IMG/VR virus record: IMGVR_UViG_3300030451_005897
Location: 1-36,810 of that record
DNA: 36,810 nucleotides
DNA from: a virus
Reading direction: 5' to 3' (one strand)
The notes beneath the pieces were generated by a model. It saw nothing but the letters and a program-made list of their open reading frames with translations, had not been told where the DNA came from and made no database searches. Made by a program: the position numbers and the translations under genes. Shown here piece by piece: positions 2,191-31,274 of this stretch (its first letter is position 1; each line of letters begins with the position of its first letter).

Positions 2191-2198
2191 TATAAATA
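2191..2198 (+). promoter_or_regulatory. T4-type late promoter
   Basis: An exact TATAAATA octamer, 6 nt before the ATG at 2205. If transcription begins where T4 late promoters start, the leader is essentially absent. Confidence 0.85.
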
Positions 2199-2204
2199 TT
2201 CATA

Positions 2205-5200
2205 ATGGCGCTTAACAAGATAGTTAAAGAAAATGAACTTAAGAAAACTCCCTATCATAGTTATAAATTTGTAGGAACGTTTCACGGAGAAAGACTTTAT
2301 GAAGAGTTTTACGACCAAGTAAAATACGATAGAGATAAAAAGCATTATGAAGAGCGTCAAGTTATTATTGATAACAAAACAACTATAGATAAGAATCTAA
2401 TCTATGAAAATATTATAGACTTAACTCCAGAACCTGTAGTAACATATTCTGTTCGACCTAATTATGAAACTAATAGATTGATAGTTGAAGCTTCAGATGG
2501 GAACGTAACTAATATTCAATGGACGCACAATTTGCTTAAATGGCAAATTAATGATAACGTTTTAGTGTTTAGAGAAATGAATAGAGAGACTAATGAAATG
2601 TATGATAGGTTTTATAATCTTAAAACTAATACAGCAGTACAATCTAGAAAAGTCTTATTAGAAAATAGAGATCGAAATCCTGATCCTGATCCTGAAAGCG
2701 CTGAAGAAGGAGGATCAGATTATTCAACTCCAGTACCTGGCCCCTACTTTGCTTACTTAGCAGGTGGTTATTATGATACTGGATTACGTTTTAATAATAT
2801 CGATATGCAATATAATTCATACGCTGATGATAGTGGTACTAATTTTTCTAGAAAAACAGGTCAATACCCATTAGGTGGATTTTTTGCTAAAAAATACTTT
2901 AATCAAACATATACGCAAACATGGGGCGAAGCTATACCTAACCCAGCCGATTGGAGTAGCGTAGAGCTTTATAATGAATATAAAGATATAGGTTATCCTT
3001 TATCACTAATTAATGAATCATATAGTGCCCATAAACATTATTGGGAATTTACTTTTGAACCAGATGATAGAGAAGAATCTAATGCATTATTTTTTACTTT
3101 CAGTAATTATTTTCCATCGCTAACAGGGTATGGGTCACATACGATGTACGTTAATCCTAAACAGCGTTCAGTACAATTCATTGCTACATCGGCATTAACT
3201 TTATTTGATCAAACAAAATTCCCTACTATTCCTCATAGTTATGATACTTGGTTTCTTTTCAACACTGAAACTTATTTTAGATTAAGTGCTTTTTATAATG
3301 AATCTCCAGATAATAAATATACTTTCAGATCTGTAATTGAACCTCAAGATTCAGGAGAAGAAGTAGTTTCATTATATATGAATGATGTTAAATTAACTAA
3401 TCATTATGTTCAAGGAGGACCTAATTCATCTATATATGATCATCATAATTTAGTATATGGTTATACACATACTAATTCTATTTCAGCAAATGATCCTAAT
3501 TTTGGTAGTAGTAGAACTTTAGTCAATGGTGTAAAACCTTTTGATTGGTTGTCAGGGTTAGATAGTAATAGCATTACTTTTAATGAAAGTTTTGGTATGG
3601 CTAAAGAATATTTGTATGGGGGAAGTTTGCGAAGTAGACCAAGTCAAGATTTTTATGGTGTAGTAAGAGATATGAAATTAGGTACAGATATTAAAGGTGA
3701 TTTATATCACTTCCCTCTTACTCAAGATACAGATGAGTTTACTGGAATATACAAAGAAAATATAGGTACTAATAGTTATGATGAATCATTGTTAAATTTA
3801 AAATATGGGTATGATACTTCATTTGTGTCTATAGGTGACAATAAAGATGTTAATGGTTATGATGAGGCCATTTTATCAGGTAGAAAAATGTATAGATTTG
3901 GAGGAGATATTGGTAATGGTGCATTTAGAAATAAAAACGATAAAGAACTTAATAATGAAGAGAAATTTGAAATACCAAGTAAATTTGAAAATCCTTTATG
4001 GAGTAAACGAAAACCTAAAAGATATTCAATAGATGTTAAACACCCTTTTGATCAAAGTTTAGTTGAAAATGCTTTATCTAATTTAACTCCAGATTACTTT
4101 TCAACTGCAATGTATATATTATCAACTGAAAAATATTCATTAAGTGCCGGATCTCCAATCATTAGAAATGTACACGGAGGTTACTCTAATGCTTCTGTTA
4201 GAGCAGCAAATGTTGATGCTAAAAATAACGTACAAAACAAATTATCAAATAAAGAAATGAATTTTAATACTCAATCATATCCATTTTGGAATGATTTAAA
4301 ACCTGGTAGTTATAATATAAAAAGAAATCCTGATTGTTGGTATAATAAAAAAGCTATTACTTGTTTTTCAGTTATGGCTGAAGTACATCCTTTTAGAACA
4401 TCATTTGTATTACTTTCTCCTAGACACGTTATGTCAGTTACACATATTAGAGATGACTTTGATGATTCTTTTTGGAATGATGGAGATACTATTATACCAT
4501 TCATGAATATGAATAATGAGTTTGTTGAACCTTGTACTAATGCATATATAGATCTATCATCAGTAGCTATTGATGCTAATGGTACATTAAAAACAAATAA
4601 TCAAGGAATTGATTATTCTATATTTCATTTAACTGAAGATGTAACATTATCTGGAATTGAAGTGGTTAAGTTTTTACCTAGAGATCAATTACCTAAAAAA
4701 GAACGACAAAGTAACGGTATTTATTACAATACAAATAAACATACTAAATTTGATTTTAACCCTGTACCATATGGAGTTAGACCCAATAAAGAAGGAATGT
4801 TTGCTATTGAACATATTAATTTTAACGGTTCTTATGGATCAGATGGCTATACTAAAAATGGTCAAAAAACGATAATAGGTACTCCAGATCCTCAATACTT
4901 GCAACCAAGTTTTAAATGGGGCTCACAAAACGTAGATAAAAATAATGAAAGAACTGGTGATAGCAGTAGACCGGTATTTATACCTCACGGTGAAGAATTA
5001 ATTTTTGTAGGCATGGTACAAAATACTCAAGTTAGTAGTACGTATGGTCATGATAACCAATGGGTAGATTATAATTTAGAAGAAGATACATATGTTGATA
5101 GAAAAATACCAAAACAAATAGGTAACAGTGGTTCTGATACTACACTTACAAATGGCTTTACAGCAATGAGTAATGAAACTTATTGGGTACAACAACAACT

Positions 5201-5372
5201 TCATAATGTTGATGTAGCATTTACAACTCTAACTATTGACTTAGTAGATGATATTCAAGCAGCAATGAATAAATTAAGTGATGATAAAGGCACTCAAAGA
5301 TATGAATTACAATATATGAAAGATATTGTAATACCTGAAGTAGATCAGGTAGATAAAGTAACACAATTTTAA
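2205..5372 (+). CDS. large virion-type protein with trypsin-like protease domain, 1055 aa
   Basis: A late gene, probably a tail appendage or adhesin. Residues 1-160 are charged and start with MALNKIVKEN; an acidic DPDPDPES linker follows near 165; a long Tyr/Asn/Ser-rich beta region runs to about 690. From about 715 to 930 there is a chymotrypsin-fold signature: SPRHVMSVTHI with His747, GIDYSIF with Asp803 and GDSSRPVF with Ser920, in the correct order and plausible spacing. The exact GDSG glycine is replaced by Ser. It stands alone on the plus strand between early-type blocks, and its end overlaps the convergent gene at 5369-5488 by 4 nt. Protease activity is inferred; the domain could be a degenerate binding module. 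Confidence 0.75.
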   Translation: MALNKIVKENELKKTPYHSYKFVGTFHGERLYEEFYDQVKYDRDKKHYEERQVIIDNKTTIDKNLIYENIIDLTPEPVVTYSVRPNYETNRLIVEASDGNVTNIQWTHNLLKWQINDNVLVFREMNRETNEMYDRFYNLKTNTAVQSRKVLLENRDRNPDPDPESAEEGGSDYSTPVPGPYFAYLAGGYYDTGLRFNNIDMQYNSYADDSGTNFSRKTGQYPLGGFFAKKYFNQTYTQTWGEAIPNPADWSSVELYNEYKDIGYPLSLINESYSAHKHYWEFTFEPDDREESNALFFTFSNYFPSLTGYGSHTMYVNPKQRSVQFIATSALTLFDQTKFPTIPHSYDTWFLFNTETYFRLSAFYNESPDNKYTFRSVIEPQDSGEEVVSLYMNDVKLTNHYVQGGPNSSIYDHHNLVYGYTHTNSISANDPNFGSSRTLVNGVKPFDWLSGLDSNSITFNESFGMAKEYLYGGSLRSRPSQDFYGVVRDMKLGTDIKGDLYHFPLTQDTDEFTGIYKENIGTNSYDESLLNLKYGYDTSFVSIGDNKDVNGYDEAILSGRKMYRFGGDIGNGAFRNKNDKELNNEEKFEIPSKFENPLWSKRKPKRYSIDVKHPFDQSLVENALSNLTPDYFSTAMYILSTEKYSLSAGSPIIRNVHGGYSNASVRAANVDAKNNVQNKLSNKEMNFNTQSYPFWNDLKPGSYNIKRNPDCWYNKKAITCFSVMAEVHPFRTSFVLLSPRHVMSVTHIRDDFDDSFWNDGDTIIPFMNMNNEFVEPCTNAYIDLSSVAIDANGTLKTNNQGIDYSIFHLTEDVTLSGIEVVKFLPRDQLPKKERQSNGIYYNTNKHTKFDFNPVPYGVRPNKEGMFAIEHINFNGSYGSDGYTKNGQKTIIGTPDPQYLQPSFKWGSQNVDKNNERTGDSSRPVFIPHGEELIFVGMVQNTQVSSTYGHDNQWVDYNLEEDTYVDRKIPKQIGNSGSDTTLTNGFTAMSNETYWVQQQLHNVDVAFTTLTIDLVDDIQAAMNKLSDDKGTQRYELQYMKDIVIPEVDQVDKVTQF

Positions 5373-6584: not shown

Positions 6585-6833
6585 TTAACCTCTCATAAAG
6601 TTTTTAACGCTCGATCTCGGACCATTCGGTATAAAATACTTCTTATTCGCATCCCAACTCTCAGCACTCATTATTTCAATACTACCAGCAGTCTTATGCC
6701 CGAATACCATACGACCTTTTACTTTCGGAGTACCTATTTTACTAGCACAGCTAACACAAATTTTCATACCCATTTCAGCACGTTCAAAGGGTATAACATT
6801 ACCACAACCGCAAAATTTTACTTCATAACTCAT
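6585..6833 (-). CDS. C4 zinc-ribbon protein, DksA/TraR-like, 82 aa, leaderless
   Basis: Four cysteines form a zinc-ribbon pattern: C8-x-C10-G, then C26-x2-C29, with an intervening PFERAEMG segment similar to the DksA/TraR zinc finger; a basic C-terminus follows. It may bind RNA polymerase or nucleic acid, but the coiled coil that DksA uses is missing, so the name is only by resemblance. The start is set by promoter P6, whose -10 lies 6 nt upstream. A longer frame reading back into the tRNA-Arg gene is not credible. It heads the unit containing bS21. Confidence 0.7.
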   Translation of the reverse strand: MSYEVKFCGCGNVIPFERAEMGMKICVSCASKIGTPKVKGRMVFGHKTAGSIEIMSAESWDANKKYFIPNGPRSSVKNFMRG

Positions 6834-6839
6834 ATATAT

Positions 6840-6856
6840 ATTATAACTAAGTTCCT
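6840..6856 (-). promoter_or_regulatory. AGGAAC-type promoter P6
   Basis: AGGAAC (6856-6851), 5 nt (TTAGT), TATAAT (6845-6840), 6 nt to the ATG at 6833. It lies 18 nt downstream of the tRNA-Arg CCA end. Confidence 0.8.
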
Positions 6857-6862
6857 TAAAAT

Positions 6863-9356: not shown

Positions 9357-10358
9357 TTAGGCTAATTCAGCTAGTTTCAACAATTTCTTACCACGTTCTA
9401 TTGTTCGTTCGGCTAATTGCTCGTTATTAATCAAAGTCCAAAACGATGACTTATTCATACGACCTAAGCCATGCTCTGAAGAATAGTATTGATTACCTTT
9501 ATTCTTACCTTTACCACGAGTACTATTATGCGTATAGTAATCAGTTACTGCAGAGAATGCATCTGCATAACTCTCACCCCGGTTACCTGCACCCTTAACA
9601 AAGAGTTCATTTAACGTTTCAACAGTATTTAAGCAACGAGTACTTAAACCTTCTTTAGGGTTATTACGCATTAAGAATCCAGTAAACAACTCAGTAGCTT
9701 CTTTCTTCTTAATTCTTTTCTTAACTAGAGTTTCGAACTTCTTCTTGAAGTCTTCTTGCGTACCTAAGAATGCATCTACGACATTACCTAAGTCAGCTAA
9801 CTTCATCTCAACATCACCTTTATGAACTACTGATCCAATCTGATCACTATTTAAGTTGCAAGTAAAAGTATTTTCACAAACAGTACAAACATTGGTATTA
9901 TTTACCCAAAGTTTAGAAGTCTGATCATGAGCATTACCGAAGTTTAGATAGTCACGAAACTCTCTATCTCCAATCTTATATTCACTCTTTCCCGCAAGAC
10001 TAACTGAAGCAAATACTTTACCTCGATTTGCTACCGAACCGATACTTTCAAGCTTAGCTTTAGGTAAACGTTTCATTGCATCACTAACAAGATCTAAAAA
10101 CTGCTCATTAGTAATATGTTTGTAAGTAGGGCTCATAGGACGTCCAACGATTTCATCATCGTCAGTCGCAACTAAGATACCATAACCAGTATCAATCTCT
10201 TCACCTTCCTTATTAATATACGTCAAAGGTTGCCTCTCTACATCCCAAGTAGATAAGAAATTATCTTTAACGTCAATGACGGGCATTATTTCCGTCAAGT
10301 CATGCCAGGCTTGCTTTAAGCCTTGCTGTGTATCTCTCTCTGTTATATTATGTGCCAT
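9357..10358 (-). CDS. DUF932 (phage/plasmid-like TIGR03299) protein, 333 aa
   Basis: The length and layout fit the DUF932 family: a WHDLTEIMPV-type start, a middle GKVFASVSLAG segment, then LNFGNAHDQTS and a CTVCENTFTCN region, followed by a Lys-rich helical C-terminal half. Such proteins occur widely in phages and plasmids; their biochemical role is not established, though they often lie near recombination or replication genes. Here the upstream gene is a RadA-like ATPase. It has its own promoter (P8), a Shine-Dalgarno leader (AAAAGGA) and its own terminator, so it is a single-gene transcription unit. Confidence 0.8.
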   Translation of the reverse strand: MAHNITERDTQQGLKQAWHDLTEIMPVIDVKDNFLSTWDVERQPLTYINKEGEEIDTGYGILVATDDDEIVGRPMSPTYKHITNEQFLDLVSDAMKRLPKAKLESIGSVANRGKVFASVSLAGKSEYKIGDREFRDYLNFGNAHDQTSKLWVNNTNVCTVCENTFTCNLNSDQIGSVVHKGDVEMKLADLGNVVDAFLGTQEDFKKKFETLVKKRIKKKEATELFTGFLMRNNPKEGLSTRCLNTVETLNELFVKGAGNRGESYADAFSAVTDYYTHNSTRGKGKNKGNQYYSSEHGLGRMNKSSFWTLINNEQLAERTIERGKKLLKLAELA

Positions 10359-10373
10359 AAGTGCTTTTTCCTT
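10359..10373 (-). repeat. 15-bp direct repeat, copy A (leader of the DUF932 gene)
   Basis: AAGGAAAAAGCACTT on the minus strand, carrying the Shine-Dalgarno just before the ATG at 10358. An identical copy lies at 10415-10429, upstream of promoter P8. Confidence 0.85.
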
Positions 10374-10389
10374 TTAATTTATATTATTA

Positions 10390-10406
10390 ATTATATATAC
10401 GTTCCT
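10390..10406 (-). promoter_or_regulatory. AGGAAC-type promoter P8 (with leader)
   Basis: AGGAAC (10406-10401), 5 nt (GTATA), TATAAT (10395-10390), then about 31 nt to the ATG at 10358, including a Shine-Dalgarno. It is flanked by the two copies of the 15-bp repeat. Confidence 0.78.
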
Positions 10407-10414
10407 TATTTCTC

Positions 10415-10429
10415 AAGTGCTTTTTCCTT
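10415..10429 (-). repeat. 15-bp direct repeat, copy B
   Basis: Identical to the DUF932-gene leader at 10359-10373 but located upstream of promoter P8, with no start codon after it. Confidence 0.85.
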
Positions 10430-10482
10430 AAAAGTTTAAAAAAGTTTAAGCAGTTTATAGTCTTGCTTAGGACCGTACCTAA

Positions 10483-11391
10483 TTATGAATGCTTATAAAT
10501 TGCGTTCTGACCTTTGCCAAACTTAATTAACTTACCGTTAAGAACTAAATCTCTCAATCGGTTATAAGCTCTTTGATAATCAACATCTAAAGCTTCCATA
10601 ACTACTTGAGCAGTTAGATGAGGCGGCTCTTTTATTGCCATGATCTTATTTTCCTCATCCTTCTTACGATTCTTCTTAGAAGGAGCTTTACTTTCACTCT
10701 CTTCAATCTTAACCGGGTTACCAAAGTCATAACCTTTAGCTCCTAAGAACAACGTTACATCATTCAGAGCACCGAAACGATTCTTGCTGAAACCAATCTT
10801 ACGAGCATCATCAGCAATATCACCTTCAATCGAAATTTCCATATTCACATCAACAGTATGCGGAACGATCGTACTACCTTTCAACTTACCATCTTTAGTC
10901 AAATGCATTACGAAAAAGATCGTGCACTCATTATCTTTCGCAGCACGAGTCAATTTACTAACTGCATACTTTTCAAGAGCTCTGCTATTGAGCTTCTTAT
11001 GAGACGTTAGAGCTTGAAATGAATCAAATACCATCACATCGAAATCTTTCATTCGATCGCACAAAGTATCAATATCAGTCTCGTTAGCTATCTTAACGTT
11101 CTTAACACCAATACGATTACAAGTAAACGCTAACTGATAAGTATTTTCCTCACCACTTGCATAAGCTACTTCGTAACCATTTACCGACATACCTTCTAAC
11201 ATTTGCAATAAGAACGTAGTCTTACCACATCCAGCAGGAGCAGTTAAAGTAATACTGCTTCCTGGTAGTATACCATCACCGAATAATTCATCGACGACTT
11301 CGATACCAGACTTATAACGTCTATAAAACAGATCAGGTACTTTAATTTCCTTTACTGCTTTGAATTGAGTTGCTTCATAATTTAGGTTCAT
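10483..11391 (-). CDS. RadA-like recombination ATPase with winged-helix tail, 302 aa
   Basis: RecA-superfamily ATPase. Residues 28-45 match the RadA/Sms opening; Walker A is APAGCGKT (51-58), Walker B VMVFDS (119-124), and the RadA-specific KNRFG motif is at 203-207. HLTKDGKLKG resembles the RadA segment before it. RadA loads as a ring helicase extending recombination intermediates. This version lacks the N-terminal C4 zinc finger and the C-terminal Lon-like domain; after a basic linker (KKNRKKDEENK) it ends in a winged-helix-like domain (about 245-302). A DnaB-like helicase role is an alternative. Promoter P9 and AAGGAG precede the ATG. Confidence 0.8.
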   Translation of the reverse strand: MNLNYEATQFKAVKEIKVPDLFYRRYKSGIEVVDELFGDGILPGSSITLTAPAGCGKTTFLLQMLEGMSVNGYEVAYASGEENTYQLAFTCNRIGVKNVKIANETDIDTLCDRMKDFDVMVFDSFQALTSHKKLNSRALEKYAVSKLTRAAKDNECTIFFVMHLTKDGKLKGSTIVPHTVDVNMEISIEGDIADDARKIGFSKNRFGALNDVTLFLGAKGYDFGNPVKIEESESKAPSKKNRKKDEENKIMAIKEPPHLTAQVVMEALDVDYQRAYNRLRDLVLNGKLIKFGKGQNAIYKHS

Positions 11392-11413
11392 ATTTTTATC
11401 TCCTTATACTACA

Positions 11414-12260: not shown

Positions 12261-13592
12261 ATGGATATAAGATTATCAAGTAATAATGCTACGGAAATAT
12301 GTACCGGTACTACTACAGGTACTAAATTAAGTGGATGCTTACATCTTAATAATTTCCCCAATCTTAAAAAAATTAATTCATTTAATAATGATATTGAAAT
12401 AGTTTATGGTATCAACGAAAATACTACTTTAACTGCAATAGAATTAGCTTGTAATAAACTAACTTCATTACCTATAATTAAAAATAAGCCTGGAATAGTA
12501 ACTGTAGATTTAAGAGATAATAAAAATATATCTGGAGAAATTTTTGATTCTTTTCCTTCTACATTAGAATGTTTTTGCGCAGAACATGTAACTAATCTTT
12601 CAGGTTATATGCCTCCTATCAACCAATGTTTAACTGATATATCATTTGCACCTAATTACATCTTAAGTGGTTCTATCACACCTATAGACAGTACTAGAAA
12701 ACTTAATATTGAAGACTTTTTTGCTAACCCGGGTAATACACTCTCATTAAATTCTAAAGAGTATGATGTTAATAAAGTTTCTACATTATCAGCTGCATGC
12801 GCCTTACCTGATAACTTATTTAGTGGAGGTAATACTGATATATTAGAGTATAATGTTTTTAATTTAAATGCAGTAGGTCAATTTAATAAATGTAACAGCA
12901 CAGCTTCTTCTCTTTTTGATGATGTTCCGAATTTATCAGTATTTAAAGCCGGTACTGTACCATTATCTAATAATGAAACAGGCACCGGTAACTATTATTA
13001 TTGTTTAGAAAGAGGTACACCATTAGTTCCATTAGCTTCAAGTGAAGATACAGCAAATATGATATCATTTGTACCGATAGACCATCCATTAAAAACTTTA
13101 AAGATTGAAGGATTCCAAAGATCAGCTACAAGAGATAGCGGCGGAGCAATAACAGTTGATGGAGGATCAAAATTTGGTTATTGTGGTAACATTGGAATAT
13201 ATGGTAACTCTCTCTCTGGAGATAAATTTTATGTCTCTGAAAATACTACTAATATTAGTTTTGCTAATAATAGATTAAATGGAGTTCAAACTTTAAACAT
13301 CTTATCAGGTGTTTGTCATACAGCAGTAACTTGCGGGGTAACTGGAGGGTTGCTTGATTTAAGAGGTAATTCAATGGTTAATTGTTTTAGTGTATCTAAT
13401 TATAGTGGCATTAGTGCTACAGGTAATAATTTGTGTACTTGCCTAGGAACAGTTGTAGGGGCTCCTTTCGGTAAATTAGTAAAAGAATGCGGTTGGACCG
13501 TTTTATATAGTTTAAATTCTGATTGTGGATGGACTGCTGAAAGTACAACTATTAATGCAGGTCCTAATGTTTGTACTACTCCTATTGATTAA
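12261..13592 (+). CDS. LRR-like, cysteine-rich late protein, 443 aa (probable adhesin or fibre)
   Basis: A probable virion appendage protein. Residues 20-125 show leucine-rich-repeat-like spacing (LHLNNFPNLKKIN, IELACNKLTSL, VDLRDNKNISG). The rest is Gly/Thr/Asn/Ser-rich with further solenoid-like pieces (ISFANNRLNGV, LLDLRGNSMVN). About 18 cysteines are unusual for a phage cytoplasmically assembled protein; two C-terminal repeats share the form C-GWT (near 412 and 425). It has no signal peptide. Its stop overlaps the convergent glycosyltransferase gene by 4 nt. Host recognition is inferred from context. Confidence 0.65.
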   Translation: MDIRLSSNNATEICTGTTTGTKLSGCLHLNNFPNLKKINSFNNDIEIVYGINENTTLTAIELACNKLTSLPIIKNKPGIVTVDLRDNKNISGEIFDSFPSTLECFCAEHVTNLSGYMPPINQCLTDISFAPNYILSGSITPIDSTRKLNIEDFFANPGNTLSLNSKEYDVNKVSTLSAACALPDNLFSGGNTDILEYNVFNLNAVGQFNKCNSTASSLFDDVPNLSVFKAGTVPLSNNETGTGNYYYCLERGTPLVPLASSEDTANMISFVPIDHPLKTLKIEGFQRSATRDSGGAITVDGGSKFGYCGNIGIYGNSLSGDKFYVSENTTNISFANNRLNGVQTLNILSGVCHTAVTCGVTGGLLDLRGNSMVNCFSVSNYSGISATGNNLCTCLGTVVGAPFGKLVKECGWTVLYSLNSDCGWTAESTTINAGPNVCTTPID

Positions 13593-14783: not shown

Positions 14784-15785
14784 ATGGCCGAGCAAGCTTC
14801 AAAGGTAATAATAAAGTCAACTAATATTGATTTATATAAAGATAATTACGTATCGTTTAGAACTGCATACCCTATAACAAGTGCTGAAGGTATAGCAGTT
14901 TTTATAACTAATACTGATATGTTCGATTCTGATTTATTTACAGATTCATATATGCCATTTGTTACAGGTTACGGTTTAGGTTTATTGCCTAATTTTAGAA
15001 ATATAACCCAGACAGACGCTAATGGTGCAGCAGTAGACAATTTAGGTGGTACTACGTTATGGACATTTTCAACCCCTAATACAGGTACTCAACTAAATGG
15101 ATTATCTGCGGATGAAACATTCATGCCTGTTAAATGGGGTGATGGTACTTTAAGTTCAGGATCTGGATCAGTTAATAAAACTTATAATAATTACTCCGGT
15201 AAACCATTATCTGGATTTAATTATTTCTTTAACCACATTGCATCCGTAGCATTGGATGGAAGAGGTGGTTACGGGTTATCAGGATTTGCATTTACAGATG
15301 GAGGTAATAACTATCTAAGCAGATATTCAATAACTAATAGAGTATTATCTGATATGCTATCAACAAATGATAGTAGAGGTACTTTTAGTGTAGCTTCTCA
15401 TTGCAATACAACAGAAAGAGTAGCAGTGCTTTCTACTGGGTATGGTACTAATGGTATAGGTGTAGAGTTAGATAGTGCACAAAACCAAATACATGAAACA
15501 TCAGGGCTAACTTATAGAATTAAATTTAGTGCATTTTTAGTAGATATGAGAGTAGATGTCTTAACTTCTAATAACGAGTTTAATAATGAGTTTAAAACTA
15601 TAGCAGATTTATCTGGAGCTGATTTAAGAACTGAAGAAAAAAGAAATGAGTTCATTAAAAAAATACCAAGATATGGTAGAATTGGTATAGCATATGCAGG
15701 TAACAGTTCTTCATACGATGGTGATTACTCTTCTGGAAAGAAAGCAAGTCAAGGCATCCAGGATATAACTCTTAACTTAGGATAA
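14784..15785 (+). CDS. late structural-type protein, 333 aa
   Basis: Rich in Gly, Ser, Thr, Asn and Tyr with short beta segments, typical of phage appendage proteins, but no domain is recognised. The N-terminus (SKVIIKSTNIDLYKDNYVSF) is more ordered; the middle has Gly-rich loops; the C-terminus has a charged helix (LRTEEKRNEFIKKIPRYG) and a strand-like end. It lies between the glycosyltransferase and fibre genes, which suggests tail-fibre or decoration use. Its end overlaps the convergent fibre gene by 9 nt. Confidence 0.65.
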   Translation: MAEQASKVIIKSTNIDLYKDNYVSFRTAYPITSAEGIAVFITNTDMFDSDLFTDSYMPFVTGYGLGLLPNFRNITQTDANGAAVDNLGGTTLWTFSTPNTGTQLNGLSADETFMPVKWGDGTLSSGSGSVNKTYNNYSGKPLSGFNYFFNHIASVALDGRGGYGLSGFAFTDGGNNYLSRYSITNRVLSDMLSTNDSRGTFSVASHCNTTERVAVLSTGYGTNGIGVELDSAQNQIHETSGLTYRIKFSAFLVDMRVDVLTSNNEFNNEFKTIADLSGADLRTEEKRNEFIKKIPRYGRIGIAYAGNSSSYDGDYSSGKKASQGIQDITLNLG

Positions 15786-28081: not shown

Positions 28082-28942
28082 TTAATCACCGAATAAATCA
28101 GCGCCAACTTTTAGGTTACCAACTTTATTATTTTTAGTAGATGTTAAAGAATGACCACCTGCATCACTCATTTCAGATCCACTATCATCTTGCTTCTTGA
28201 TCTTAGCATCTGCTTTCTTAGAAGACGCTTTTAATGCTACTTTGTTGTTCTTAGGATTTTTTAATCCTGAATCTTTTTGATTTACTAGTGCATGACCATG
28301 ATCTTCAGCATCAACTGCTTCTTCAGCAACTTCTTCATCTTCTTCATCTTCGCCATCTTCTGAATCTTCAGCATCTTCTTCATAATCAGAAACTTCTTCC
28401 ATTTCTTCATAATCTTCATGCTCCATGTCTTCAGCTTCGTCACCTTCACCCATTGCTGCTTGTAAAAGATCGCAAAGACTCTTAGCCATGTCTTTATCTA
28501 ATTCAATTGTGATTGTATCACCGGCTTCGGAAACTTCATCAGTTTCGGTATCTACTCCGAGTGCTTCAAGCTCACCTTGCTCTTCATCACTCATTACGTT
28601 TTCAAATAATTTATCAAATGTTGACTTCATGTAATTATTTATTGACTCTTTAACCTTTTTTCCAACTTTTTTATTATATTGTTCATCAGAAAACTTTTCC
28701 ACATCATCTCCTACTTTATTTTTAGCAGGATCATTAACTGTATAAGGCTCTTTTTCAAATCCATCTGCATTTTCAGGACCTGAAGTATCTTTATTTGTAA
28801 GCTCGTTACTCTTGTTTAAATTCTTAGCACCTGGCCCTGGTTTAATACCCATTTTAGCTGCTTTTGCTGCTGGAGCAGATTCAGATAATATATTCTTATT
28901 ATATGTATCCCATATTTCTGTTAAAGTGTTTACACGTGTCAT
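28082..28942 (-). CDS. acidic late protein, 286 aa (possible prohead core or internal protein)
   Basis: Three parts: a Lys/Ala/Pro-rich N-terminus; a short ordered helix-strand part (TITIELDKDMAKSLCDLLQAAM); and a long Glu/Asp-rich stretch of about 65 residues. The C-terminus has a duplicated motif: GHAL...KNNKVALK and GHSL...KNNKVGNLK. Acidic composition fits T4 prohead core proteins, but no match is certain. The start at 28942 rather than 28978 is set by TATAAATA with 5-nt spacing. It is transcribed alone, divergent from terminase, and ends with a terminator. Confidence 0.7.
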   Translation of the reverse strand: MTRVNTLTEIWDTYNKNILSESAPAAKAAKMGIKPGPGAKNLNKSNELTNKDTSGPENADGFEKEPYTVNDPAKNKVGDDVEKFSDEQYNKKVGKKVKESINNYMKSTFDKLFENVMSDEEQGELEALGVDTETDEVSEAGDTITIELDKDMAKSLCDLLQAAMGEGDEAEDMEHEDYEEMEEVSDYEEDAEDSEDGEDEEDEEVAEEAVDAEDHGHALVNQKDSGLKNPKNNKVALKASSKKADAKIKKQDDSGSEMSDAGGHSLTSTKNNKVGNLKVGADLFGD

Positions 28943-28955
28943 AAATATATTTATA
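28940..28955. promoter_or_regulatory. bidirectional late promoter
   Basis: A near-perfect palindrome containing TATAAATA on the minus strand (28955-28948), 5 nt before the ATG at 28942, and CATAAATA on the plus strand (28940-28947), 13 nt before the terminase ATG at 28961. Confidence 0.72.
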
Positions 28956-28960
28956 GCGAA

Positions 28961-30652
28961 ATGGCAAAAGATAAACAAAATTATATGAATAACCCTAATT
29001 TACCTACCGTAGGGGCTGAATTTGCATATACTCCTAAGATGGTAAAAGAAATAGAGAAGAGCTCTAAAAATATATTGCACTTCGCTGAAAATTATTTTCA
29101 TATAGTATCATTAGATGACGGTAAACAAAAAATTAAACTTCATTATTGTCAAAAACGAGTACTAAGAAAAATGAGAGATAATAGATTTTTTGTATTATTA
29201 GCTTCTCGCCAGATTGGTAAAACAACGATGATGACAATTTATGCATTATGGAATGCATGCTTTAATAATGATCAACGTATATTGGTAGTAGCTAATAAAG
29301 AAGGTACCGCTATAGAAATAATGAATAGGATTAGATTAGCATATGAAGAATTACCTAATTGGTTAAAACCTGGAGTTAAAGAGTATGGTAAGACTTCTGT
29401 TACGTTTGCTAATGGAACTAAAATAGGTATATCAACTACCACCGGTACAGCAGCTCGTGGTCAATCAGTTAATATACTAATACTTGATGAGTTAGCTTTT
29501 ATTGAACCTCATTTAGTAGAAGACTTTTGGAAATCAGTTTATCCTATTATTTCATCATCTAAAAAGTCTAAAATTTTCATAGCATCAACTGCTAATGGTA
29601 CTGATAATCTTTTCTATAATTTATATACTGGAGCTGAAGCAGGTGAATCAAACTGGTCATGTGATAAAATTTTATGGAATGAAATACCAGGTAGGAATGA
29701 GAAATGGAAACAAGAAACTATTAGATCGATAGGAAGTAGAGATGCTTTTGAGCAAGAGTTTAATTGTGTATTCTTAAACTCTGGTGAAAGTACTCTAGAT
29801 GATGACTTATTTGATAGGCTTAAAGTACAGGCATCTGAACCAAAATATGTGTTTGATGAAGGTAAGTATTTACTTTGGGATGAACCACACGATGACCGTA
29901 TATATATAGCAAGCGTCGATACATCTGAAGGTTTAGGTAAAGACGCTTCAGTTATACAGGTATTTGAGTATTCTGATTTAACTAATATAACTCAAGTTGC
30001 ATGCTACCATGATAGTACAATATCCCCGTATAATTTTACAGAAAAAGTATATGAAATTTTACAGCATTGGGGTAAGCCATTAGTTTGTATAGAGAGAAAT
30101 AATTGTGGAGCTCAAGTTGTTGATGGGTTAAAGAATACTTACGATTATGAAAATATAATTTCTTGGGGATCATCTACTGCAAGTAGAAAGAGTCAATCTC
30201 AATTAGGAATAGTAGCTCATACAAATACGAAATATAAAGGTGTTACTAATATGAGATATTGGCTTAATGAACTTAATGCAGTTAAAATTAATGATATACA
30301 ATTAGTAAAAGAATTAAAAAACTTTATTAAGTTTGCAAACGGCACGTGGGGAGCTAAAAGAGGCTACCATGATGATAGAGTAATGGCTTTAATTTGGAAT
30401 TTAATTATTTTAATTGATGATATAGTTAGCAGGTATTTTGAAGTAACAAAATATGATAGTAATAAAAGACCTCTTGAGCTTGAGCAATTTGATTATGGTA
30501 TTAAATACTTTATGAACCCTACTTCAATGTATACCAATGAAAAGATTAACGAGTTCGGAAGTACTATGCCCGTTATTATTGGTAATGCAACAAAGGCAGA
30601 GTCAGAAATGGATTTATTAATGAAGCAAGGATATAAGGTATGGCAGCAGTAG
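28961..30652 (+). CDS. gp17: large terminase subunit gp17, 563 aa
   Basis: The packaging motor ATPase and nuclease. Walker A ASRQIGKT (81-88), Walker B ILILDE (172-177) and the coupling motif IASTANG (207-213) are all present. The nuclease part carries SVDTSEG (Asp320), CIERN (Glu378) and YHDDRVMA (Asp471/472), the three acidic positions of the T4 gp17 nuclease. The length is close to T4's 610. The portal (gp20) is outside the window. The next gene starts 13 nt before its stop. Confidence 0.95.
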   Translation: MAKDKQNYMNNPNLPTVGAEFAYTPKMVKEIEKSSKNILHFAENYFHIVSLDDGKQKIKLHYCQKRVLRKMRDNRFFVLLASRQIGKTTMMTIYALWNACFNNDQRILVVANKEGTAIEIMNRIRLAYEELPNWLKPGVKEYGKTSVTFANGTKIGISTTTGTAARGQSVNILILDELAFIEPHLVEDFWKSVYPIISSSKKSKIFIASTANGTDNLFYNLYTGAEAGESNWSCDKILWNEIPGRNEKWKQETIRSIGSRDAFEQEFNCVFLNSGESTLDDDLFDRLKVQASEPKYVFDEGKYLLWDEPHDDRIYIASVDTSEGLGKDASVIQVFEYSDLTNITQVACYHDSTISPYNFTEKVYEILQHWGKPLVCIERNNCGAQVVDGLKNTYDYENIISWGSSTASRKSQSQLGIVAHTNTKYKGVTNMRYWLNELNAVKINDIQLVKELKNFIKFANGTWGAKRGYHDDRVMALIWNLIILIDDIVSRYFEVTKYDSNKRPLELEQFDYGIKYFMNPTSMYTNEKINEFGSTMPVIIGNATKAESEMDLLMKQGYKVWQQ

Positions 30653-31251
30653 ATCAATCACAATTTAATAAAAGTAGATTAGATAAATTTTTACTTGTTA
30701 TAGATTTACCTAACTCGCTAAAAGATATACTAACTACTGACTTAGCCGATAGAAAAAATACATCTATAATAAGTGATTCTCTTCAATTTTCAGTTTATGG
30801 GTCAATTGTTCCGGAAGTTTTAGTACCAGAAAAAGCTCTAGGTTATGCCGGGCAATCAATTAAAATATCGTCTCATGTTAGACCGGTTTATCCTAATGTT
30901 AATGTAAATTTTACTATTGATAACCAATTTAATAATTATTGGACCATATATAAATGGTTAGATTTCTTGAATGATGAAAAGGAATCAGTCTTCAATAGTA
31001 AAAACATAGCAAAAACGCCAGAAGTTGCATCAGGATTTAAAACTAAAAAAACTTTAACGCCATCTGATTTATATCAAGCAGATTTTAGTCTTTATGCTAA
31101 AAATGAATTTGATCAGGATATAGTAAAATTTACATATACCAATGCTTTTCCTGTAAGTTTAGGTAAAATAGATTTTAATTATAGAGACCCCGGTGAAATA
31201 GAAACTAGTTTTGAATTTGCATTTTCACAATTACTTGTTGAATTGATATAA
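30640..31251 (+). CDS. gp19-superfamily tail protein, 203 aa
   Basis: The middle and end follow the T4 gp19 tube fold: VNFTIDNQFNNYWTIYKWLDFL, then YQADFSLYAKNE, FTYTNAFPVSLGKIDFNYRD and a final strand. It is not the main tube, since a clearer gp19 is at 35031. It could be a second tube-like protein or a tail terminator/completion component. It starts inside the terminase gene with a Shine-Dalgarno-like GCAAGGA upstream and no late promoter. Confidence 0.7.
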   Translation: MAAVDQSQFNKSRLDKFLLVIDLPNSLKDILTTDLADRKNTSIISDSLQFSVYGSIVPEVLVPEKALGYAGQSIKISSHVRPVYPNVNVNFTIDNQFNNYWTIYKWLDFLNDEKESVFNSKNIAKTPEVASGFKTKKTLTPSDLYQADFSLYAKNEFDQDIVKFTYTNAFPVSLGKIDFNYRDPGEIETSFEFAFSQLLVELI

Positions 31252-31266: not shown

Positions 31267-31274
31267 TATAAATA
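31267..31274 (+). promoter_or_regulatory. late promoter (exact octamer)
   Basis: TATAAATA with 7 nt to the ATG at 31282. Confidence 0.85.

Follow-up and report, generated by a model that had tools for sequence, protein, structure and literature searches.

The question raised by this locus is whether an isolated gene of a T4-like phage encodes a protein that ends in a trypsin-like protease and, if so, what such a protease would do for the phage. The stretch of DNA analysed (hereafter, the window) is a virus record of 36,810 bases holding terminase, tail sheath, baseplate wedge, head closure and S74 tail fibre genes of the T4-like type. The open reading frame (ORF) in question starts with ATG, encodes 1055 residues, and stands isolated on the plus strand, where it is flanked by short minus-strand genes. 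Comparisons of its sequence indicate that the last ~365 residues very probably form a diverged S1-type (chymotrypsin-like) serine peptidase domain, in which His747, Asp803, and Ser920 would make up the catalytic triad.

Layout of the protein and its gene context

The features of the locus are the following:

2191–2198, plus strand: TATAAATA, exact copy of the T4-type late promoter box, lying 6 nt upstream of the ATG
2205–5372, plus strand: 1055-residue protein with a C-terminal S1-like domain (relative on contig G001 at 52–57% identity)
2319–2714, plus strand: N-terminal module, residues 39–170 (123/132 residues identical to G001, 93%)
2715–4271, plus strand: middle region, residues 171–689 (identity to G001 drops from 67% to 44% along it)
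4272–5369, plus strand: putative S1-like peptidase domain, residues 690–1055, to the C-terminus (alignments A5 and A10; profile match)
4416–4448, plus strand: His block SPRHVMSVTHI, with His747 at codon 4443–4445 (triad-block test, five-row alignment)
4605–4625, plus strand: Asp block GIDYSIF (GIDYSIFHL), with Asp803 at codon 4611–4613 (triad-block test, five-row alignment)
4956–4979, plus strand: Ser block GDSSRPVF, with Ser920 at codon 4962–4964 (triad-block test, five-row alignment)
5241–5288, plus strand: LVDDIQAAMNKLSDDK, aligned at low confidence with the C-terminal helix of S1 proteases (alignment and profile-profile match)

The N-terminal module is closed by an acidic Pro-Asp linker and is a candidate for the virion-docking part of the protein, in which no signal peptide was recognised by eye. 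As for the genes on either side of the ORF, the upstream one is present in none of 20 related records and the downstream one in a single record (1/20).

The box ahead of the gene, TATAAATA, corresponds to the T4-type late promoter consensus. The window holds eight exact copies against 16 expected, and two of the other seven lie 5–7 nt before the ATG of an ORF, one of which is the tail sheath gene. Because the box is rarer than chance and two other copies also stand just before ORF starts, its presence is a reasonable indication that a gene is expressed late; the exact match 6 nt ahead of the ATG thus suggests late expression of this gene, in line with the preliminary description of its product as a late protein. 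The boxes found 5–7 nt before start codons (2191–2198, 28948–28955, and 31267–31274) would, should they act as late promoters of the T4 kind, give rise to messages with almost no leader. The box was not seen just before the genes of the three relatives from G005 and G011 described below.

A different repeat, ATTATAT-N5-GTTCCT as read on the plus strand, precedes several short minus-strand genes between positions 1 and 12002 of the window (for example, at 669–700, 1620–1651, 2130–2161, and 6827–6858). Read on the minus strand, it consists of AGGAAC followed by an AT-rich box near the start codon, and is perhaps an early promoter.

The His-Asp-Ser triad

His747, Asp803, and Ser920, which the preliminary description had placed in the order of the chymotrypsin triad, are all found at these residues of the 1055-residue ORF, and both the triad-block test and the alignment show them in S1-like surroundings. 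The block test makes use of PSSM blocks that cover the His, the Asp, and the Ser with its following strand, derived from 80 bacterial S1 proteases plus four further S1 proteases. It was run on the window, 32 related phage contigs, and the Sinorhizobium phage phiM9, which together gave 1787 unique ORFs; the contigs represent 32 of the 35 related records (all except G006, G030, and G034), which had been reached through 35 of 52 terminase loci, and G015, G025, and G031 were scanned up to their last 509, 1076, and 1961 bases, respectively.

The best ordered triple chosen by this test in the 1055-residue protein is exactly H747/D803/S920, and its score was not reached by any of 2000 shuffles, as was also the case for the related G001 protein (0/2000). 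Among the 1787 ORFs, the G001 protein ranks first and the window protein second, while the positive control, phiM9 gp099, annotated as trypsin-like, ranks fifth. Among ORFs of at least 100 residues from the window, G001, G002, and G005, only the window ORF and its G001 relative match a strict regular expression written for the three residues in their order.

A family of five proteins

Four further proteins share this arrangement. The G001 protein is a relative of the window protein whose N-terminus is cut off and whose triad is kept. The block scan yielded three more, whose phages carry related terminases: G005a (G005, 28824–31022, 733 residues; blocks PRHGVAAEH, NDCSLV, and GDSGNPNF), G005b (G005, 174622–176565, 648 residues; KFGLSNTH, NDANLI, and GDSSSPSF), and the G011 member (49290–51155, 622 residues; KFGLTNTH, QDCRVE, and GDSSSPAF). 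The latter ranks just 11th in the scan, and was recognised by its GDSSSP motif and by its 56% blastp identity to G005b. As G005a matches the G005b and G011 members with E-values of 1e-7 and 6e-9, these three proteins are mutually homologous at the sequence level. The G005b and G011 genes abut a same-strand ORF of 332 or 331 residues, and G005a is separated by one other ORF from a preceding gp5-like baseplate hub gene. A match to a GDS-x-x-P pattern in G027 (L064) was judged unrelated on reading its sequence.

The link between the window/G001 pair and the G005/G011 members, taken alone, is weak by blastp (E 0.02–0.04, over the Ser block). HMM cross-searches between both groups gave E-values of 0.07 and 0.39, which correspond to the 4th and 6th places among 2058, and the G005/G011 members are not among the best 12 matches listed for a model of the window and G001 proteins.

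In the five-row alignment A10, 17 of 497 columns are invariant, including H747, D803, G918-D919-S920, and P923, although the members are only about 20% identical. The three catalytic residues are conserved in all five rows of both A10 and an L-INS-i alignment, partly by selection in the G005/G011 rows, since the block scan requires H, D, and S. In G005a, the Asp chosen by the scan (555) differs from the one placed by A10, and in the four-row alignment A11 the His column is shifted and not invariant. Every one of the five members carries the domain at its C-terminus and ends with a Gly/Tyr/Leu motif, located after LVDDIQAAMNKLSDDK in the window protein, that the block scan did not use.

A 244-residue fragment at a contig edge (L219 of G008, 3–734) opens with NPPTFNDLKR, a motif shared by the proteins G005b and G011, and is probably a further family member cut before the protease domain.

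Relation to S1 proteases

Profile-profile similarity to S1 proteases is found with the family profile and not with single sequences. Compared by hhalign with a profile of 84 S1 sequences, the five-row profile scores 36.8 (P 1.3e-4, probability 53%), and this blind comparison brings the family His and Asp into exact register with those of trypsin. With a looser confidence cut-off, the alignment extends through the Ser to the last (C-terminal) helix. Lower scores were obtained for 198 column shuffles (≤18.7), for 86 other phage families against S1 (≤21.9), and for the five-row profile against the same 86 families (≤21.7). Given that the block scan demands H, D, and S, a selection-aware control was included, in which 20 decoy sets picked by the same block score reached at most 19.1. 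His and Asp also fall in register when only the four further proteases are used, but with an E-value of 0.011.

The profile of the window and G001 proteins, which were not picked by block score, scores 24.3 against S1 (40 shuffles, ≤19.3), and its two best local alignments place the Ser block and the Asp block in register. The window protein alone scores 22.1, not above its shuffles (maximum 22.4), and neither G001 alone, G005a alone, nor G005b with G011 rises above shuffles. When the 84 S1 sequences are turned into a plain HMMER model, the window and G001 domains do not stand out, obtaining 1.4 and 0.8 bits versus 3.9 for the best background.

The five-protein family with invariant H, D, and S, together with the blind S1 profile match in register, supports the trypsin-like domain of the preliminary description, and a double beta-barrel fold would be expected for it. 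Since both the Gly-Gly after the Ser and a Pfam match are absent, the domain is here named S1-like rather than a typical S1 member.

Library searches and comparison with known systems

The 1055-residue protein has no Pfam match at E ≤ 1 and its domain none at E ≤ 10, nor was any of the five family members matched at E ≤ 10. Neither PF00089 nor PF13365 was matched by the protein; PF00089 was not found anywhere in the window at E ≤ 10, and PF13365 occurs in none of 20 related records. PHROGs and NCBIfam gave no match for the family members except chance-level rows for the G001 protein, which makes the S1-like domain family new to these three libraries. The label "tail-type", used in the preliminary description, finds no backing in any library match of the protein. 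Moreover, tblastn of the protein against phage isolates and named phage records gave no match, no match to the family profile turned up in 11 named T4-like isolates, and nothing meaningful was matched among PDB sequences by the protein or the domain.

Viral contigs searched with the protein, the domain, the N-terminal part, the His block, and the Ser block each returned only G001, and a search with the G005b/G011 domain returned only those two themselves. A DNA pattern search found four contigs, one of them G001, with the gene on locus L007; the other three were read and judged unrelated. No match was obtained in genome contigs searched with the A1 profile. Across the 35 related records, many of them fragments, the A1 and A5 profiles found only G001 (1/35), an absence that is weak because the same profiles missed the G005 and G011 members.

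Compared with S1 peptidases (PF00089, PF13365), the phage domain shares the H-D-S order, the hydrophobic strand before the His, the Asp block, the G-D-S-x-x-P motif, the blind profile register, and, at low confidence, the C-terminal helix. However, it falls below every library threshold, its Gly-Gly after the Ser is replaced, it holds long insertions between the Asp and the Ser and after the Ser strand, and it is fused to a protein portion of ~700 residues without a signal peptide (as judged by eye).

T4-like Rhizobium and Sinorhizobium phages are known to encode stand-alone trypsin-like proteases (PMC10783043). Among these, phiM9 gp099 and its Rhizobium phage relatives represent an S1-type protease in a T4-like phage, as the window domain probably does, and are found by the same block scan. 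Unlike the window protein, gp099 is a stand-alone protein of 230 residues whose gene lies near the major head gene; by eye, it resembles HtrA and appears to have a membrane anchor. A profile comparison of gp099 with the window domain gave no match, and by sequence these stand-alone proteases are different proteins from the 1055-residue one. A second comparison is offered by the Peptidase_S74 domain (endosialidase chaperone), which closes fibre proteins encoded in this cluster, although its Pfam match (PF13884) is absent from the 1055-residue protein. Judging by listings of mostly open-access literature, no paper describes an S1 domain as part of a tail protein of a phage.

Divergence from G001

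Identity between the window and G001 proteins falls from 93% (residues 39–170) to 38% (residues 956–1055). A gradient of identity from the N- to the C-terminus is usual for tail fibres, and the one seen here fits an attached base with a variable outer end.

The other genes common to the window and G001 are 26–87% identical, apart from two at 99%. These two, a DUF932 gene and an AAA-ATPase gene (window 9360–11403), form a block whose near identity is a sign of recent exchange. Two isolated plus-strand genes in the tail fibre region, one at 12261–13592 (443 residues, weak leucine-rich-repeat score, 26% identical to G001) and one at 14784–15785 (333 residues, without a match, 48% identical), appear to be fast-changing accessory genes. 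In G001, a sulfotransferase-like gene (by eye; L001, 7399–8223) lies a few kilobases from the protease gene.

Proposed role

We lean, with little more than even confidence, towards an S1-type peptidase carried by a late T4-like phage protein, borne on the particle, and cutting host surface proteins. The strongly conserved N-terminal part would most likely fix the protein to the particle (in the tail, baseplate, or fibre region), the fast-diverging C-terminal part would face outward, and the peptidase domain at its end would cut host surface proteins during adsorption or penetration. Fold, activity, and substrate are all predicted here, as is the location in the virion, which we infer from the gene context (baseplate genes and S74 tail fibres elsewhere in the window, and a gp5-like hub gene near G005a), the late-type promoter box, and the conservation gradient.

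The main alternative, which we regard as rather unlikely, is a protease that works in cis or on adjacent fibres to mature them while the particle assembles, as a serine-protease counterpart of the S74 domain. S74 C-terminal domains self-cleave and fibre assembly can need processing, so that the S74 domains at the ends of the neighbouring tail fibres in the window, as well as the C-terminal position of the protease domain throughout the family, would suit such a role. However, no conserved cleavage site was noticed by eye ahead of the domain, and host-specific use is favoured over assembly because the distribution of these proteins is accessory and patchy.

Probable activity of the domain

Peptidase activity of the domain is likely, as judged from its conserved residues. 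The preliminary description had pointed to the Ser-Arg after the catalytic Ser as a possible mark of an inactive enzyme. This argument is weakened by the family: in A10, the two positions that follow the Ser read SR, SS, SS, SS, and GN, so the canonical Gly-Asp-Ser-Gly-Gly-Pro is not found in any member, while Gly-Asp-Ser and the Pro are fixed in all five. Because the family varies at these two positions and Gly-Asp-Ser is invariant, Ser-Arg alone is no argument for inactivity.

The replacement of Gly-Gly in every member (GN, SR, SS) would also suit an S1-like fold retained as a binding domain without activity, and some S1 relatives are indeed inactive binders. We consider this even less probable than a processing role, since the oxyanion hole is supplied by the Gly and Ser amides, and the invariance of H, D, Gly-Asp-Ser, and Pro at such low overall identity would be unexpected if catalysis had been lost.

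Finally, an unrelated fold with a chance arrangement of residues, such as a GDSL-type hydrolase read from the GDS motif, is improbable: the missing library matches and the poor AlphaFold2 models (pLDDT 27.6 and 29.9, from two-row and four-row alignments, the second with the shorter G005b domain as first row) would agree with it, but the shuffle, phage-family, and decoy controls of the block test and hhalign speak against it, and GDSL/SGNH hydrolases hold their residues in the order Ser, Asp, His, with the His near the C-terminus, whereas no invariant His follows Ser920 in A10.

Possible implications for phage entry

To our knowledge, the enzymes described from phage tails act mostly on sugars or peptidoglycan. 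The preferred reading, that of a particle-borne peptidase acting on host surface proteins, opens a wider and still tentative possibility: this group of T4-like phages may arm its particles with trypsin-like protease heads that cut protein receptors or surface layers at entry, as polysaccharide depolymerases cut capsules, with the heads being swapped between N-terminal docking modules. Two different proteins with the domain, G005a and G005b, are encoded by a single phage. The family would add putative proteases without a match in Pfam, PHROGs, or NCBIfam, and if tail-type proteins repeatedly carry an S1-like domain, it would become possible to test whether phages attack surface structures made of protein.
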